From the NCBI RefSeq assembly GCF_037975245.1, contig NC_092582.1, positions 12,492,577-12,556,576 of the forward strand: DNA of 64,000 nucleotides, in the 5' to 3' direction. A model generated the notes under the pieces. It made no database searches and was not told the origin of the DNA. It saw only the letters and a list, made by a program, of their open reading frames with translations. This document shows, piece after piece, positions 14,012 through 63,525 of this stretch. Both the position numbers and the translations under genes were made by a program. Source of the DNA: Apostichopus japonicus (Eukaryota > Echinodermata > Holothuroidea > Aspidochirotida > Stichopodidae). Positions within the stretch are counted from its first letter, which is position 1, and each line of letters begins with the position of its first letter.

Positions 14012-15373
14012 ACCATCATCTGTGAGATTGGTATTGGCATGTGAGAGAGACAACTGTCATGAACAACCAACCAACCCTCCCTTCCTACTCACCACACCCT
14101 CCACAGCCAGGAGACATAAACCCTACTACCATCATCATTGGTCTATGTGATAGAGATAACTGTCAAGAACAACCAACCAACCCTCCTTACCTTGCCCTAT
14201 TCACCCCCCCCCCTTACAGCCAGGAGACATAAACCCTACTACCATCATCATTGGTCTATGTGATAGAGATAACTGTCATGATCAAACAACCCCCCTCCTT
14301 ACCTCAGCCTAATCACCCCCCCCCCTCCACAGCCAGGAGACATAAACCCTACTACCATCATCATTGGTCTATGTGATAGAGATAACTGCCATGAACAACC
14401 AACCAACCCTCCTTACCTTGCCCTATTCACCCCCCCCCCCCTTACAGCCAGGAGACATAAACCCTACTACCATCATCATTGGTCTATGTGATAGAGATAA
14501 CTGTCAAGAACAACCAACCAACCCTCCTTACCTTGCCCTATTCACCCCCCCCCCCCTTACAGCCAGGAGACATAAACCCTACTACCATCATCATTGGTCT
14601 ATGTGATAGAGATAACTGTCATGATCAAACAACCCCCCTCCTTACCTCAGCCTAATCACCCCCCCCCCTCCACAGCCAGGAGACATAAACCCTACTACCA
14701 TCATCATTGGTCTATGTGATAGAGATAACTGCCATGAACAACCAACCAACCCTCCTTACCTTGCCCTATTCACCCCCCCCCCTTACAGCCAGGAGACATA
14801 AACCCTACTACCATCATCATTGGTCTATGTGATAGAGATAACTGTCATGATCAAACAACCCCCCTCCTTACCTCAGCCTAATCACCCCCCCCCCTTACAG
14901 CCAGGAGACATAAACCCTACTACCATCATCATTGGTCTATGTGATAGAGATAACTGCCATGAACAACCAACCAACCCTCCTTACCTTGCCCTATTCACCC
15001 CCCCCCCCCTTACAGCCAGGAGACATAAACCCTACTACCATCATCATTGGTCTATGTGATAGAGATAACTGCCATGAACAACCAACCAACCCTCCTTACC
15101 TTGCCCTATTCACCCCCCCCCCCCTTACAGCCAGGAGACATAAACCCTACTACCATCATCATTGGTCTATGTGATAGAGATAACTGCCATGAACAAAATA
15201 ACCCCCCTCCTTACCTCAGCCTAATCACCCCCCCCCCTTACAGCCAGGAGACATAAACCCTACTACCATCATCATTGGTCTATGTCATAGAGATAACTGT
15301 CAAGAACAAACAAACCCTCCCTCCCTCCTTACCTCACCCTAATCCCCCCCCTACAGCCAGGAGACATAAACCC
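14012..15373 (+). repeat. 12-copy minisatellite, ~113-bp unit, with higher-order A-B-A structure
   Basis: The motif GCCAGGAGACATAAACC recurs at 14106, 14219, 14332, 14447, 14562, 14675, 14788, 14900, 15015, 15130, 15243 and 15356, a spacing of 112-115 bp. Each unit carries a C tract of variable length (about 7-11) followed by TTACAG or CCACAG. Units fall into type A (CAACCAACCAACCC...TTGCCCTATTC) and type B (CAAACAACCCCCC...CAGCCTAATC). Units 2-4 and 5-7 repeat the order A-B-A, which points to amplification of a trimer of about 340 bp. Several overlapping proline-rich frames cross it and are artefacts. Confidence 0.95.
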
Positions 15374-28700: not shown

Positions 28701-31700
28701 GATTTAGTTCTTAATGGTCTATAACCCTGTAAACTATTAGAGGACAAGGTTTTCCATGCAGAAACTGTGCATCACACCAGCCTTAGCTCTGCAATCTTTC
28801 CCACCAGATCAGCCTACTGGAAACAGACCACCGCCCTCTTTAAGTAACTACGATCATTAGCAACAGGAAGTTAAGAAACTTGATACTATCAAGGACTGAA
28901 AATGTTTTCAATTGTAGAAAGTTGTTTTAGTTTTCATGATCAATATTTATGAAATACAGTAGATTCACCCACTGAGCCTGACTAAAGTGATAGCAGAAGT
29001 GCTTTGTTTGATAGATTTTGAAATGTTATCAGGCTAAACATTTTGTGTCAAGGAAAATAAAAATGGACCAAAAACCAAGGAAAGAACTGAACAATAACAA
29101 TTGATAAGAATCAACAGATTAACATAATCATGTTCACAACCTTCTGTGCTTTGGAAATTAAACGCAACAAATTATCACTCTGCATGAAAAATGCGATAAT
29201 TTTCAGAAATGTTGATGAGTAAAGCCACTTCTGATTAGCAATTGACAATAACACAAAAGGCAAGAAAGTTCACACCAATTCCTGTACAGTGTGCTTCGGT
29301 ATTTACATCAGTCATTCAATATAGTGGTTCAGTTTGAGGCAGTTTTGATCATTATTGCTAAAAACTACAGTAAAAACTTAAAACTACAATTTACAGATAG
29401 TTCATCATCTCTGTCAAACACTTGAGGTGGAAAATGGGAAATAACAGATAACAAATATTGAAATTTACAGAAGACATGCTTTTTGAAAGAAAAACCCAAA
29501 CAATATCATTTTCCTATTGTTACAGGTATATTAACTTACAAGATTGTTTCCCAAGTCCGTCTTTGAGAAAACAGAAAAGTAGTTGACTCCAAGAGGGCCT
29601 GCCACAGTCAAGAAATCCTTCAGTGAGTTGCTACCTTTTGCCTGCAAATGAACAAGCGAAAAGGGTTTTCGAACGATCATATCCCTGATTATGTCAAATG
29701 AAACCCTTGTAAAAGGATAACTAGATAACCAGATGCTTTCATTCAATATCATAGGCTGTTAAAACTATGTACTGAAATTAGCTGCAATCTAAAGCAGCTT
29801 TAGGGTCATGATCAAGATTTGGCTTGTTCTAAGTAATGAGAGATGCATTGTGGTAGACTTTCTGTCATAGCATAATTCTTTGTTACTATTAATTTAGAAG
29901 CTCCTTTCTATATAACCTATGTGCATACTAATGCAAAACGTTTCCACTTACTTCTAAATCTCTAGCTGTGAATGGCTCAAAGACTCTTCTGAAATCCTTC
30001 ATTAGTTGAAAAGACACTTTCCCAATCACACCTCTTGTGAAAACAAATGTATGGGGCACTTTAGCATAGTCTTCTTCTGGCTTTGCCTGGTTCCTTTTTG
30101 ATAATTTGGAGGTCTTTCCCTGTAGATCAAAACAAAAAAGAAAAATGAGATACAGGCCTTGTGCTAACCAAGATGAAGATACAATCATTTCTATAAATTC
30201 TTAACATCCAGTACTTATCAGTATTAGTAAATCATTCTGGACTATATAGATCAGCCTGGGCAGATGACAGTGATCTGGACCTGCAAGCTATATTGGTCAG
30301 GGCAGCTCCTCCACCAGTGACAAAGCTAGCAACATCAAGTCCTCCATCCCCTCCAAAGACAAACCAATGAGATTTAACATCTGAACAGTGAACATAACCG
30401 ATTCTGCTTGGATAACTGTATCCTTTACTAGTCACTCTCTTAAAATAACACCCAGCTAGTTATGTACACACAAAAATTGTATGCAAACACACTAAATATT
30501 GGATTTGATTAGCAGGTATTAGGTAATGGAGGTTAGAGGACCCCTTCGGACTCCCCGAATTCCCAACGCGTCAATATGCTCACGATACAGTAGTGCTGAT
30601 AGTCATAATCGATTAATCGCCAGTAGTCGCGATTACAATTTGGAAGTTCAATTAATTGCGCTCAAAACCTAAGTTACGATTACTCGACTACAAGCTAGCA
30701 CTACACATAATCTGCTTTTGAAAAATAGCCTAAGCTATCAAAAACAACACTAAAGCAGTTTGTCAGCAAATATCGCAATAAGTATACATGTTCTCACAAT
30801 TCTACACTAGCACTGTGCTGTGTTAAAAATTGGCGAGCATCTGCTTCAGTTAGATTCGTGCATTTGCTTGTCAGTAATTAGTTGTTCTAAAGTGCAACAT
30901 TCAGTCCTAGCAATGTTTAATCATTGCACATAATCGCAAGTTCGTAACTTATTAATCTTTTACGATTACCAAAGTATTTGTCATTTCTTCAGACATGTTT
31001 ACAATTACTTCATTACTGGCCTGGTTCACATTTGTCGGATGTCTGATAGAGTGTGTCGATTGTAGTGTAGTTTCATTTCAATGTGCAAAATATGTACCTG
31101 CTATTGTGCTAGGCCAAAGCCTAGCCTAGAATGTTAAACGTCCTTCTACAGAAAACTTTTGCATACTGATCATCACACTGCTACAAGGTGTTACAACCAT
31201 TGTTTGCATGTTTGCTTTTATTAGTGATTACAGCTGTAGTAGCCTTGTAGATTCATTCAAAAGTTTTTGATTTACTATGGATGATTTTAAGAAACGTAGA
31301 TTGAAACTTGTTCATTTTTGTTTGGTAGATTTTTTAACATGATTTAGACACCACGCGTTAAGACACTTAAGAACATATAAAGACAGTGCACCATGGAGAA
31401 AGATTTGTTTTGGCTATTCCTGCAATGTAAACATGACAGTGATGAGGTCATATCTGTAACAGAGTAATCACAGTAATCACGAGAAGAGCTATGCGATTCA
31501 TCGACTACAAAAGACAGAGTCGACTATCAGCACTAGTTTGTGTCTTGAAAATGATTATATCATGCTTCCTTTATAGTATATGATCACATATGATATATGA
31601 TTTAGGACTAACATTAGTGATGAGTACATTTTTAGTTCATATATTGTAAATACCAACTGTTTTTAAAGGGTGTGAAGACTCGCGCACAAAGAAACATCTC

Positions 31701-34517
31701 ATGCCGGCAATCTGACCTAGTTTCGAATGAGGTGTAACAGAAGTGTTAGACACCACCATCGATCCCAGAAAATACACACACAGCTTGCTACCGTCGGGAC
31801 TTAGACACTAAGTGTACAGTCAATACATACAGCTACGGTCAATACCCACAACACAGTGTACATAGCAGCGTGGACATCTCAGGTCTAGATAAAAGATAGC
31901 AAGGTATCACGTTTCATTACAGCCTGCATTTTGTAGCAACAAGATAACGTCATTTGCAAGCAACAGAAAGTTCACTTTTTCTGAGTGCGGCACGCTGTTT
32001 CAGGGGTCGAAATTTACGCTATTCCGCTATCCCGAGATAGTGAAATCATGAACGGAATACCAAGTTGCTTGGGTTCACTATTCCGTATGGATAGTGCTAA
32101 AATTGATAGCTAACAACAAACTTTGACAAATCCATCTAAATTTACTTGCCTGTCACTAGTCAGGCAACAATTTTAATTTTATTTGTTTCCCGGGCGTTAA
32201 AACTTGCCCAGAAATACAAAAGAAACTCTCTTTACACGTGAGTTGCAGTTATGTACAGTACATACATGTTCCGTAGCCAACTGCACTTGCACAGTATAGC
32301 AAGCCTTACATTTTCCTCCGATTTATTGCACTTTACACGTTCCGTATACCATCGCGTATGCACGGAAATTTATCACCTCGTGGGTAACAGGTACAGTAGT
32401 ACAGTGTTGAAAATCCTTGTTCAATTTTCCGCGAACATACTAAAAACAACTGCCGATCTCCCGATTTTGGTTATATTTTTCGGGCAAGTCGTTTCAGCCC
32501 CCAAATCAAACAAGGCTCCTACGCCTATGCTTGTGGGTGTCCAGGGGCGAAGGCCCCCGGAAAATATTGGTAATGTTGCTTGTCTGGCGATAAAAAATTA
32601 GCAGTTGAAGATGCAAAATAATAACAAATTTTGGAATTTAAATTGTCACGAAACTGATGAAAATTTTAAAATGACAAGTTGGAGAGTGTAGCAATATTAT
32701 GTTATGAAAAGAGATTTAAATTGTCTTACAATCTTTAGAAAGTTTAACTTACAAAACTTCCGATATTATGAAACAAACAACGTTCGGCAAAGCCCCGTTT
32801 CTAGACTGCCATATAATAACCATGAACATAAGTAAATCAGTTTACAAATGCAGTGTTTACCCCTACTTAAATACTACGTTAGGCTACACATATGCTGCGA
32901 ATTTTCCGAAGTACCTTGCCAAACAACTGTGAGCTCATCCCCTGTCTAACACCTGTTTGTTAACATTTTTTGGCACGTTTCCAAGAAACGTTACATGGGG
33001 TTCAACTGTTTTGGCTCCATTCTAGAATTAATAAGGTCAGTCAGTAAAGGATCGGTAAATTAATGCGAAATATTATCTTAGGCGTTCAAGAAAAGTAGGT
33101 AAAATATCCCCGTAACATTTAGATAAGTAAAACACACCTCAAGCCAACTGACTCCTCCGCATGAACAAAACAACATATTTCCCATGATACACGAGGCACA
33201 GTCCATACTATACAAGCATAGCACGATATCAAGGCCCCTATAGTTACCATCCTTATGAAAGTAACCCTTGTAATGACATGTTTTAGGCCACTTGGCATGA
33301 TTCACTAAATGCTTAATATTGTTTCCATGTTCTTGTAGAAAATTTCAACTTCGCAAAATACAATAAGTTGTGTTTTGTATTTACGTGTGATCCGTAACCG
33401 ACAATGTGGTTAGGCTATTTGCTATACACTTTACTATGGTAGGATATTATTTTTGGGTATTTTTGGAAATTCTAGAAAATACTTTTTCTCCCGCTTAACA
33501 CCAGATGTGGTCTTACGGTTTATTCATAAATGGGTGTAATAGCACGATATGCCAGATTCGCGTGAATTTTTCGAAAGTGTTTTGCTCGATCTTTTCGTAA
33601 AATTTGAAAGGTGTACCAACTTACTTTTTGTACACAATTGGTATTTTTTCTACTGATTTTCGTTTTTTCCCTCTATACAGTACAGTGAAGTGAATTTGTT
33701 GTGCATTGAGTATAAACTTAACGCGAATGCAAGAAAACGATGCGGGGACTTCCAGCAGACAAATGTTTTCTTTGCGGGATTACTGAGTCAGTTGAAGGGA
33801 ATCCCGCACATTAGAGGGAATGCTGAACTGAAGTCAAATGCATACGAAAGAAAACAATTACTAACTAACATACAATATAAATTTAAAAAAATGTGGAATG
33901 GCAATATTGTTCAAACCATTTCCCGCGAGGCTGATTTATTATAGCAACCTTCCCGCGCTGGGCCGTAGATGTCCGTGTGACCCATATACCCTGAAGTGTG
34001 TGAAACTAGCCATTGGCATTGCCCTTGTGAGTGGGTTTTACAACCTGCGTCCTGGGTAACATGCTCTCTCGCCTCAGTACTCAAAACAATTATGATTATC
34101 AACCAACCAACAAAAGACACAACATATAATTTTGTAATGTTTTTTTTTCTTTTTATTGTTTCAAAGGAATAGTGGAAAATGAGACGGAATAGTGAATTTT
34201 CAAATCCACTATTCCGCTGGAATAGTGGTAAATATTCTAAATTTCGACCCCTGTGTTTGGGGTGAGTCTTCAATGCCTTTAATTTTGTTGTTGTTGTGGG
34301 GCAATCCTGATTAATCTGAACATATGGTTACCCAATGTACGGTATCTTAGGCCTACCTTACCCTGTAACATGGCTAGCACAACGAGGCATGCATACACCC
34401 CATATGTCTAACCTAGGCTACACTATACAAATTGTACCCTAGCCTACAGTACATGTATTTCTACAAGTATAAAGAAACAGATACTGAGATATGTAACGTC
34501 ACCTTCTTCCTTGCCAT
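16725..34517 (-). CDS. ppan: Peter Pan / SSF1 homologue (PPAN), Brix-domain 60S ribosome assembly factor, 13 exons, 519 aa
   Basis: Exons in coding order are 34503-34517, 29952-30119, 29540-29641, 28167-28217, 27450-27620, 26793-26869, 26170-26277, 25513-25636, 24779-24857, 23873-23927, 23239-23313, 21978-22111 and 16725-17125. All junctions are GT-AG and every phase closes. The product starts MARKK. The Brix domain runs from about residue 27 (PHTFVFTRG) to 280, with SNSLKDFLTVAGPLGVNYF, RLSRGPTMTFRI, FLHPPLLVLNNFG, LKLMATMFQNMFPPIDV, KALPVGMSRCVKKLI and SAVRLVEIGPRMTLELIKIEEG. It continues into a basic coiled stretch, an acidic segment (DVDDDMEYY) and DLFPKK. PPAN/SSF1 acts in the nucleolus in pre-60S maturation. 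The last exon adds a tail of 9-10-residue repeats rich in Gly, Ser, Lys and Glu, making the protein about 46 residues longer than human PPAN. The gene is head to head with PSMB1. Confidence 0.96.
16876..17032 (-). repeat. In-frame repeat in the PPAN C-terminal tail
   Basis: About five copies of a 27/30-bp unit encode F-[GA]-S-K-G-(R)-S-E-G-[NRK]. Units differ by an optional Arg codon, so copies are 9 or 10 residues. The length change is always a whole codon, which keeps the frame and suggests coding constraint. Confidence 0.9.
17126..21977 (-). other. PPAN intron 12 (4.85 kb)
   Basis: It separates the acidic-segment exon from the tail exon. No nested gene was recognised. A block at about 20220-20720 is visibly less AT-rich than its surroundings but has stops in all frames I read. 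Near 20965-21000 there is a short tandem of AACAATAAACTAAG. Confidence 0.6.
22574..22957. mobile_element. hAT-like non-autonomous element (384 bp) in PPAN intron 11
   Basis: The ends are CAGGGGGGTAGGA and TTCCTACCCCCTG, which are inverted repeats. The flanks carry a perfect 8-bp direct repeat CATGTCTA (22566-22573 and 22958-22965). The interior is AT-rich and non-coding. It belongs to a different family from 1733-2100, although the termini are similar. Confidence 0.9.
30591..31535. mobile_element. 945-bp terminal-inverted-repeat element
   Basis: The left end TAGTGCTGATAGTC and right end GACTATCAGCACTA are perfect 14-bp inverted repeats. Sub-terminal CGATTAATCG/CGATTAC-type motifs lie inside both ends. 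TA dinucleotides at the edges could be a TA target duplication; I found no 8-bp duplication. No transposase was seen. Confidence 0.75.
31667..34278. mobile_element. TTAA-type MITE, copy 1, split by a later insertion
   Basis: Termini AGGGTGTGAAGACTCG and CGAGTCTTCAATGCCT lie inside perfect TTAA duplications (31663-31666 and 34279-34282). Without the insert the element is about 354 bp and matches 49263-49613 in reverse orientation over its full length. The TTAA target is typical of piggyBac or Kolobok-related elements. The insert occupies 32001-34253. Confidence 0.9.
32001..34253. mobile_element. 2.25-kb CAGGGG-type DNA transposon nested in the MITE
   Basis: The ends CAGGGGTCGAAATTTA and TAAATTTCGACCCCTG are perfect 16-bp inverted repeats. 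TGTTT is duplicated on both sides (31996-32000 and 34254-34258). Near both ends are several sub-terminal copies of ACTATTCCG/GGAATAGTG, as expected for transposase binding. Small open frames (for example 33690-33944) show no transposase motif I can recognise, so it looks non-autonomous or decayed. The hAT-like terminus with a 5-bp duplication is unusual. Confidence 0.88.
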
Positions 34518-46899: not shown

Positions 46900-49800
46900 A
46901 TGATGACAACTCCTGGAGGTGGTAAACGTTTAAATTGGTACACAGACCATCCTGTGGTTCGTATGAATTGATTTATGTAGTTTAGTGCCAAATTGTATGA
47001 AAGTTGGCAAATCTGTCATATGTACTTATAAACTTTCAGCTATGTTAACTAGCTTTGAATTTGTTAGGGTACTGGTTGTACGAAATTTAGTCACATTGTG
47101 GCTATTCGTCAATATATGTTTATTCACATCTTACTTGCATAATGCACAACTTTGCCGTTCACACTGAGTAATACCTGCAGTCTACACTGAGGCACACCCT
47201 ACGCCAGACTTGCTTCCATTTTCCTTTCCTTTAGTTTTGACAATATCACTGGCTCATGCCTTAATGTAGTTATTACTTAAAGCGCTCTACTTGCTACAAG
47301 TCTGCATTGAACATTACTGAGTGCAGATCGAGTACACCTTTTGCCAAGTCCACTATTGGTATTGCAACAACAAACACAGTTTTATCATGATCATTGTTTC
47401 TAGGTGACATGATAATTTTTAAAGAAAAACTGAGTAGCTGCCAACATGAGCTAGTCCTTCAAAAATTGCACTTTGTACAAAAAAAATTATCCAACACAAA
47501 CATTTGCATGTGGTGGCATTTGCAGATAAGATCAACAATGCACAACAACGTTGCTATAAGGAACAACTTGTAATTAGAAAGCTCGTAGGAAGTGGAAGAT
47601 TGTTGCAGAAGGAAGAGGTGAGGGTATAGTTTAGTAAAGTCTATAGATACTTGCTATTCATAGGAAGCCATAACTATATACTGGTCAGTACTAACGTTAC
47701 TACCTCCAGGCTACAAATTTGTATCTGTATGTAGACTTCTGTAAAACTTGCTCTATTTAGATTACATAATATGACAGTATGACTTTCAACTTGTTATGAC
47801 ATCTCTTTCCCTGCCAGGCAAAAGAGAAATTCATGTTGTTTGCCTGGTTGCTGATATATAGCAATGGCACAACTCTTCTGTTGGGTAAATAGGCAAACTA
47901 ATCTCCAATGATGAAGCTACACCTTCTTGACTATTTCCTTACCAGGGTAGGCTTGGGCATGTAACCCGGAAATACTAGTTGGAGCAGGGCGGCGCTTACA
48001 GTCACAATACTGTACTCCTGTCCTGTAACTTGTGAAGCTTTGGTACACAATGTGGCACAGATTGTGAGGGGGAGGGGAGGGGCACAATAGCCTGCATGGG
48101 GGTGGGTACAGCTCCCCCCCCCCTGTGTCCTGGCATGGCTATGGGCCTGGGTGGGCTGTAGGGAATCGAGAACTGTCCCTATCAGAAGTTCCTAGAAAAA
48201 TGTTCACACAGAAGAGTTACAGCTTCTCTGATTAAGTCAATGAGCATGTCAACCCAAATGCTCGTCACGCTTAAATTATTTTCATACAGAACTGGCAAGT
48301 AGGGTTTCTTAGTAAAGTTCCCTCCCTTTTTTATTTTCATAACATACTAAACATCCACCACTTAAACCCATGGCCACTTAATTAATGATGATATTAATTA
48401 ATACTTCATTAGTAATTAATGACATAATAACTGTGTTATGAAACAGCACCTCTGCTGTACCTGATCATAAGTTTGTCAGTAACTTGCAGTGAGCTGTGAG
48501 CTTTTAAATTGTAATATACCCTCGGCTTCTGGTCGTACAAATTGTGAGAGAAAACTGACTTGTGCACAAACTGTGGAGAATAGGTAAGAAGCTAAGTGAT
48601 AACTGATATACTCAAATAAAGAAGTCTATTCTTACAGGGTTTTTTTTTTTCATTCACATTAAGTGAAGTCATTTTTATGAATGTGAGTATAATATATCGT
48701 CAAATCACAATAAACAGTGAGATCAATTCTTTTCCAGCTGGAAGAGATGAAGGAATGGGGCTTTGACGGAAGAGTCAGTGTTCATGCAGCATTTACAGTC
48801 TACTTGGATCTGTGTGAAGGTGATGACTTTTTCAAATAGATTGTATCCTGCATGTGAGACAGTTTTTTATATAGTAGAAGTAAATCCTAACATGCTTTCT
48901 ATGTTGTGTGATAGTGAAGTATGTTAATCAATCTTCTACAAACAGTGTCTATTACAAGGATAAATTCACATTCATATACTTATATATATGGAGTAAAACA
49001 AAATCTTATTGACGCATTTAGGCAAAAATATAAGTCACTCTGTTAATATTCTGTTAATATTAACAAAGAAATTGCATCAGCAAGTATATTCACCAAAATA
49101 TTAGGGAAATTAATGATATGAAATTGACTGGGAAATTTTGAGCAATCTTTATAAAACCAAAAATTGTCAGGGGAGTAAATTCTGTGTTTTGGAATTGCAT
49201 CTACAGTAGTTACTGTAGAGGGCTACACAAAACCTGCAACAACCAATGTTTGTAGGAATTAAAGGCATTGAAGACTCGACCCAAACCGCGTGCCACCCTC
49301 TGAAAAAGTTAACTTTCCGTTGCTTCCGAGTTGCTTCTTGTCGCTACAAAATGCAGACAGTGATGAAACATGAGACCTTGTTATCTTTTAGCTAGACCTG
49401 AGATGTCCATCGCTGCTATGTACACTGTGTTGTGGGTATTGACCGTAGCTGTATGTATTGACTGTACACTAGTGTCTCATTACCGACGGTAGCAAGCTGT
49501 GTGTGTATTTTCTGGGATCGATGGTGGTGTCTAACACTTCTGTTACACCTCATTCGAAACTAGGTCAGATTACCAGCATGAGACGTTTCTTTGTGCGCGA
49601 GTCTTCACACCCTTGATAATATCCTATGCATTGTACAAAATGGCGTTTACAAAGTTTCCAAACAATTATGCAAGGTATCTTTAGTATTTCTGTAGATGCA
49701 GATTGAGACTATTGTTTTCTAATAATTCTTGCCAACACTTTAATACTAGTTTCCTGTGAAATTCCTTTTATTTAATTGGAATCTTTTGTATCTTGAGTAT

Positions 49801-54140: not shown

Positions 54141-63525
<9,385 letters not shown>

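Follow-up and report, generated by a model that had tools for sequence, protein, structure and literature searches.

An interrupted MITE and its uninterrupted twin

The window, by which we mean the whole 64-kb stretch of DNA analysed here (G000:C22:12492577-12556576, in a genome of 671,581,487 bases in 35 contigs), carries at 31667-34278 a MITE flanked by TTAA on both sides, read directly at 31663-31666 on the left and at 34279-34282 on the right. The MITE falls into two parts, a left one (31667..32000, forward strand; delimited by sequence reading and by alignment to a twin and to sibling copies) and a right one (34259..34278, forward strand; sequence reading and twin alignment). The left part ends in a first TGTTT (31996..32000, forward strand), a second TGTTT (34254..34258, forward strand) precedes the right part, and both copies were assigned by twin alignment together with a table of termini. 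Between them lies an inserted element of 2,253 bp (32001-34253), whose termini, CAGGGGTCGAAATTTA at its start and TAAATTTCGACCCCTG at its end, fix the boundaries 32001 and 34253. A sequence-only reading had proposed that a 2.25-kb element cuts the MITE at exactly these positions and is bordered by a 5-bp duplication, TGTTT; direct reading and alignment agree with every coordinate, and reading of 31996-32000 and 34254-34258 confirms the duplication.

An uninterrupted copy of the same MITE, the twin, lies at 49263..49613 on the reverse strand and was recognised by reading and alignments; it has GGTTT at the equivalent site. When the left flank, one TGTTT and the right flank are joined and compared with the reverse complement of 49230-49660, the alignment is unbroken and scores 556, against 514 for the left flank alone and 547 if both copies of the duplication are retained. 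Collinearity is thus preserved across the junction, as expected from the earlier claim that the twin shows the pre-insertion sequence. What has to be amended in that claim is the status of the site: the twin represents the pre-insertion state as a paralogous copy of the family, not as the locus's own empty allele.

The family is large. A search with the twin returned 1,246 rough candidates in the 671.6-Mb genome, and the 40 of them that were scored all have at least 92% identity. From the rough candidates, a density of about 0.12 copies per 64 kb is expected, so that finding a twin within the same window was mild luck. The twin retains TTAA at 49259-49262, and its right-hand TTAA has degenerated to TGAT (49614-49617). 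In the 20 copies that match the twin most closely, a sample that does not count the twin and leans towards it, the insertion site as aligned and read by eye is GGTTT in 16, GTTTT in two, AGTTT in one and GATAT in one; TGTTT occurs in none, and TTAA (also by eye) is present on the left in 15 and on the right in 18. The G-to-T change that sets the interrupted copy apart predates the insertion, because it is carried by both copies of TGTTT and was hence duplicated along with the site.

MITEs related to Kolobok or piggyBac have TTAA flanks, short inverted termini, a length of about 350 bp and large families. The interrupted MITE resembles them in each of these respects, and Kolobok and piggyBac are the candidate superfamilies.

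A 5-bp-duplication hAT shell around a buried second element

The inserted element is itself a composite. Its 5′ shell (32001..32401, forward strand), beginning with the terminus described above, is 81% identical over the first 250 bp to the 5′ end of L025, a copy found elsewhere in the genome, and its 3′ shell (34037..34253, forward strand) matches the 3′ end of that copy at 85% identity over element positions 2036-2253. Searches of the genome gave at least 39 match rows for the 5′ end of the element and at least 44 for the 3′ end. The genome-wide search for the 16-bp terminus that had been suggested as a check returned 26 exact matches on each strand, compared with none on either for the reversed pattern, which speaks against chance, and duplication lengths were tabulated for 28 copies.

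CAG-type ends are typical of hATs. The CAGGGGTCG element has short terminal inverted repeats beginning with CAG, and both 16-bp ends are exact in 19 of the 29 rows tabulated. Because L025, with the same ends, carries hAT transposase domains, the inserted element is a non-autonomous hAT whose duplications are mostly 5 bp long. A Pfam search with six of its 13 reading frames gave a single row, EURL, below the cut-off (E 0.13); its longest frame, 138 amino acids, extends past the edge of the element.

L025 is 5,377 bp long, has a TGTTC duplication and shares with the window's element only the outer 250 bp and 218 bp at the identities given above. One of its frames, of 421 amino acids, contains a zf-C17orf113 zinc finger (E 1.1e-10) and a separate frame the hAT C-terminal dimerisation domain PF05699 (E 3.6e-5), both above their cut-offs; a match of DUF659 to an L025 frame lies below its own. 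A sequence search of solved structures with the L025 frame gave no match. L025 is the sole transposase-bearing copy found with both ends, fragments being present also at C4:8255982 and C7:15856235. Since its ends are 15-19% diverged from those of the composite, the actual mobiliser may be another copy or another family. A related transposase-bearing family of four copies (L055-L058), with termini CAGTGAATAATTTTAA, aligns to the L025 frame in two pieces at 40-47% identity. Its members are 98-99% alike across about 4.7 kb, so the family is probably of recent origin. In each of the four, the N-terminal match runs through one TAA, which may reflect an intron or a lesion.

Most of the inserted element belongs to neither end of this shell. 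The boundaries given for a single 2.25-kb element stand; its composite make-up had been overlooked, with about 1,635 of the 2,253 bp coming from a second, buried element. This hAT-type element (32402..34036, forward strand) has the 5′ terminus CAGTGTTGAAAATCCTTG, and some 300 bp are missing from its 3′ end. Its 5′ end is fixed by ten full copies of its own family (L100-L109), all ten of which have their position 1 aligned at element position 402; window position 32402 is therefore the 5′ terminus of an element whose family makes 8-bp duplications. The position of the 3′ junction is accurate to a few bases. With 1,035 rough candidates genome-wide, the interior of the inserted element recurs well outside the family of the 5-bp shell. 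An initial candidate explanation for this core, captured host DNA, was dropped, as the core proved to be a repeat and then an element with its own termini.

A pattern for the terminus of the buried family has 166 forward and 151 reverse matches, and its control none on both strands. Pairs were read among the first 100 of these 317 matches, leaving out two matches on C5 that may form a pair, with 6.3 kb between them. Eight of the 11 two-ended copies read have exact 8-bp duplications and two have 8 bp with one mismatch; the eleventh, read at its ends only, shows no clean duplication. The family would accordingly be placed among the canonical 8-bp hATs, which it resembles in its CAGTGTTGG/CCAGCCCTG ends and in its 8-bp duplications, these two features being the whole basis of the match. 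At the buried 5′ end, the presumed 8-bp duplication is CAGTAGTA (32394-32401); a partner was not found in element positions 2000-2060, and none of the copies read has a 5-bp shell that holds the buried element in complete form.

Fifteen of a set of 20 copies align end to end with the window's element in one piece, and both internal junctions are therefore common to them.

The same core also occurs outside the 5-bp shell, and 14 such places were fetched (L066-L079). Both CAGGGTTCTGCC ends of a further family are present at six of them (L070, L071, L072, L074, L076, L078), with readable 6-bp duplications at L071, L072 and L074, and pieces of the CAGGGTTCTGCC shell appear in the alignment at three others (L073, L075, L077). 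The remaining five (L066-L069 and L079) have no CAGGGTTCTGCC shell; at L068 and L079 the core is bounded by its own ends, and the flanks show an 8-bp match with one mismatch at L068 and no match at L079. The CAGGGTTCTGCC family is hAT-like. In L071, the 3′ end of the core is present, give or take a base or two, and its first 200-250 bp or so are absent, the opposite of the 5-bp shell, which keeps the 5′ end. As the truncations lie at opposite ends of the core, its two lodgings look like separate events.

Duplication length within and between families

Three hAT-type families with modal duplications of 5, 6 and 8 bp thus coexist in one genome, which allows the constancy of this length to be examined within each. 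For the 5-bp family, 24 of the 28 two-ended copies, the window's included, have an exact duplication: 5 bp in 19, 6 bp in three (L005, L008, L022), 7 bp in one (L015) and 4 bp in one (L009). Four have none (L006, L011, L018, L028), although L028 matches over 5 bp with one mismatch. This count excludes L021, which has a broken 5′ end and figures in the 29-row terminus table, as well as L029-L034 and L059-L065, for each of which one end is damaged, absent or was not retrieved, and the one-ended matches at C3:16353778, C15:852716 and C17:25649616. Cross-pairing of left and right flanks from different copies (756 pairs) gave three 4-bp matches, three 5-bp matches and none longer; in view of the three 4-bp matches in this control, the one 4-bp duplication may have arisen by chance. 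The copy L018 (G000:C19:25130000-25132401) may have inserted aberrantly or been rearranged afterwards. In the related L055-L058 family, three duplications are 5 bp long and one, that of L058, is 6 bp.

The table for the 6-bp family covers 41 pairs, namely L071 and L072 plus 39 of the 40 pairs found when the first 100 out of 249 matches to its terminus were listed. Left out were L076 and L078, which lie in AT repeats, L070, which has both ends but no exact duplication, and L073, L075 and L077. Twenty-seven pairs have 6 bp, one has 5 bp (L085), one has 8 bp (L088), three have no exact duplication and nine are unreadable in AT repeats. The three near-matches comprise 6 bp with one mismatch (L083, L126) and 7 bp with one mismatch (L086). 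Since 5 of 506 cross-paired control flanks match by chance over 5 bp (8 do so over 4 bp), L085 is weaker evidence than L088. The nine insertions in (AT)n repeats, out of 41, raise the possibility that the family favours TA-rich targets.

In the 8-bp family, of which few copies (11) were read, the exact duplications are all 8 bp long (8/8). Duplication length is thus modal per family, not fixed, and the families with short staggers show a tail. Fisher tests returned no significant difference between the 5-bp group (6/28 off-length) and the 6-bp family (2/29; p 0.14), nor between the short-stagger families together (8/57) and the 8-bp family (0/8; p 0.58).

Our preferred reading of the spread, put forward tentatively and at somewhat less than even odds, is that short-stagger hATs use one enzyme whose two target cuts would be loosely spaced, so that most duplications measure 5 (or 6) bp and the rest range between 4 and 8 bp. 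Rather less probable is that the 6- and 7-bp duplications stem from a second enzyme, such as the transposase of the 6-bp family, which would use the same ends without any slippage. This would fit the presence in the same genome of a many-copy 6-bp family whose termini also start with CAGGG. Against it, the termini part after CAGGG (CAGGGGTCGAAATT versus CAGGGTTCTGCC), and the 6-bp duplication of L058 occurs in a transposase-bearing family whose other three duplications are 5 bp; neither point is decisive.

The families can be set beside groups already described. The hAT5 group, credited to Kapitonov and Jurka (2007), is cited in PMC12730594, and its 5-bp duplications are described in PMC9004415; the text of PMC6004678 does not mention hAT5. 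The CAGGGGTCG element is like hAT5 in the hAT domains of L025 and in its modal 5-bp duplication (19/28), which makes it a candidate member, but differs in that 5 of its 24 exact duplications are 4, 6 or 7 bp long. Similarly, the hAT6 group has 6-bp duplications (PMC12730594), as do 27 of the 41 CAGGGTTCTGCC pairs; the CAGGGTTCTGCC family is a candidate member by this length and differs in its single copies with 5 and 8 bp. For the hAT7 group of rust fungi, 7-bp duplications are reported as a lineage trait (PMC12730594). That case is like the present one in that hAT duplication length varies between lineages, whereas here single 7-bp and 8-bp cases arise within 5-bp and 6-bp families.

A search of mainly open-access literature returned no account of a spread of duplication length within hAT families. 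As hAT5, hAT6 and hAT7 are named by this length, a spread within families is relevant both to the definition of the groups and to the way in which the transposase holds its target. If loose cut spacing by one enzyme were true, the 5-, 6-, 7- and 8-bp groups of the literature would be shifts of one distribution.

History and relative ages of the nest

All parts of the nest belong to known kinds and reflect ordinary transposon biology; what the locus offers is a clean three-layer nest with a paralogous empty site as its control. With high confidence, we propose that a composite non-autonomous hAT inserted into an older TTAA MITE, and that the burial of the 8-bp-duplication element and a deletion came earlier. 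In the ancestor, a member of the 8-bp family would have landed at position 402 of a 5-bp-shell hAT, after which the 3′ end of the insert and the rest of the host's inside were presumably deleted. The composite would then have been amplified as a single unit, with an L025-type hAT transposase presumably acting on it in trans, and would have entered the MITE by ordinary cut-and-paste.

It is doubtful, by comparison, that the core moved between shells by recombination or gap repair instead of by transposition of an 8-bp-family element followed by deletion. Such an origin would account for the fact that in both shells, the 5-bp shell and L071, one core junction is not at a transposon terminus; the other junction, however, coincides with a terminus of the buried family, to the base in the 5-bp shell and to within a base or two in L071, and this speaks against it because a terminus-located junction is what transposition predicts. 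That the interruption is an artefact of assembly or rearrangement can be set aside with near certainty, as no point in its favour was found and the same termini with an exact duplication recur at 23 of the 27 other two-ended copies genome-wide.

The order at the locus, MITE first and composite hAT second, follows from nesting, not from divergence, and upholds the relative age given by the sequence-only reading for this locus. Insertion of the 8-bp-duplication element into the 5-bp shell took place earlier and elsewhere than the MITE insertion. The activity of the MITE and that of the hAT are not separated in time by divergence: 22 MITE copies have a median pairwise K2P of 0.064, and the window's hAT copy is at 0.040 from its nearest relative and at a median of 0.068 from 15 siblings (the sample being the 16 full-length copies among those fetched). 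Two copies of the composite, L018 and L019, are only 0.002 apart, from which the composite probably moved recently.

Further repeats are present elsewhere in the window. A tandem array at 14039-15373 consists of 11.8 copies of a 113-bp unit with a higher-order period of 343 bp. A 348-bp repeat pair, 97% alike and in opposite orientation, occupies 1733-2080 and 60495-60842, and an 86-bp stretch at 55974-56059 is related to it.
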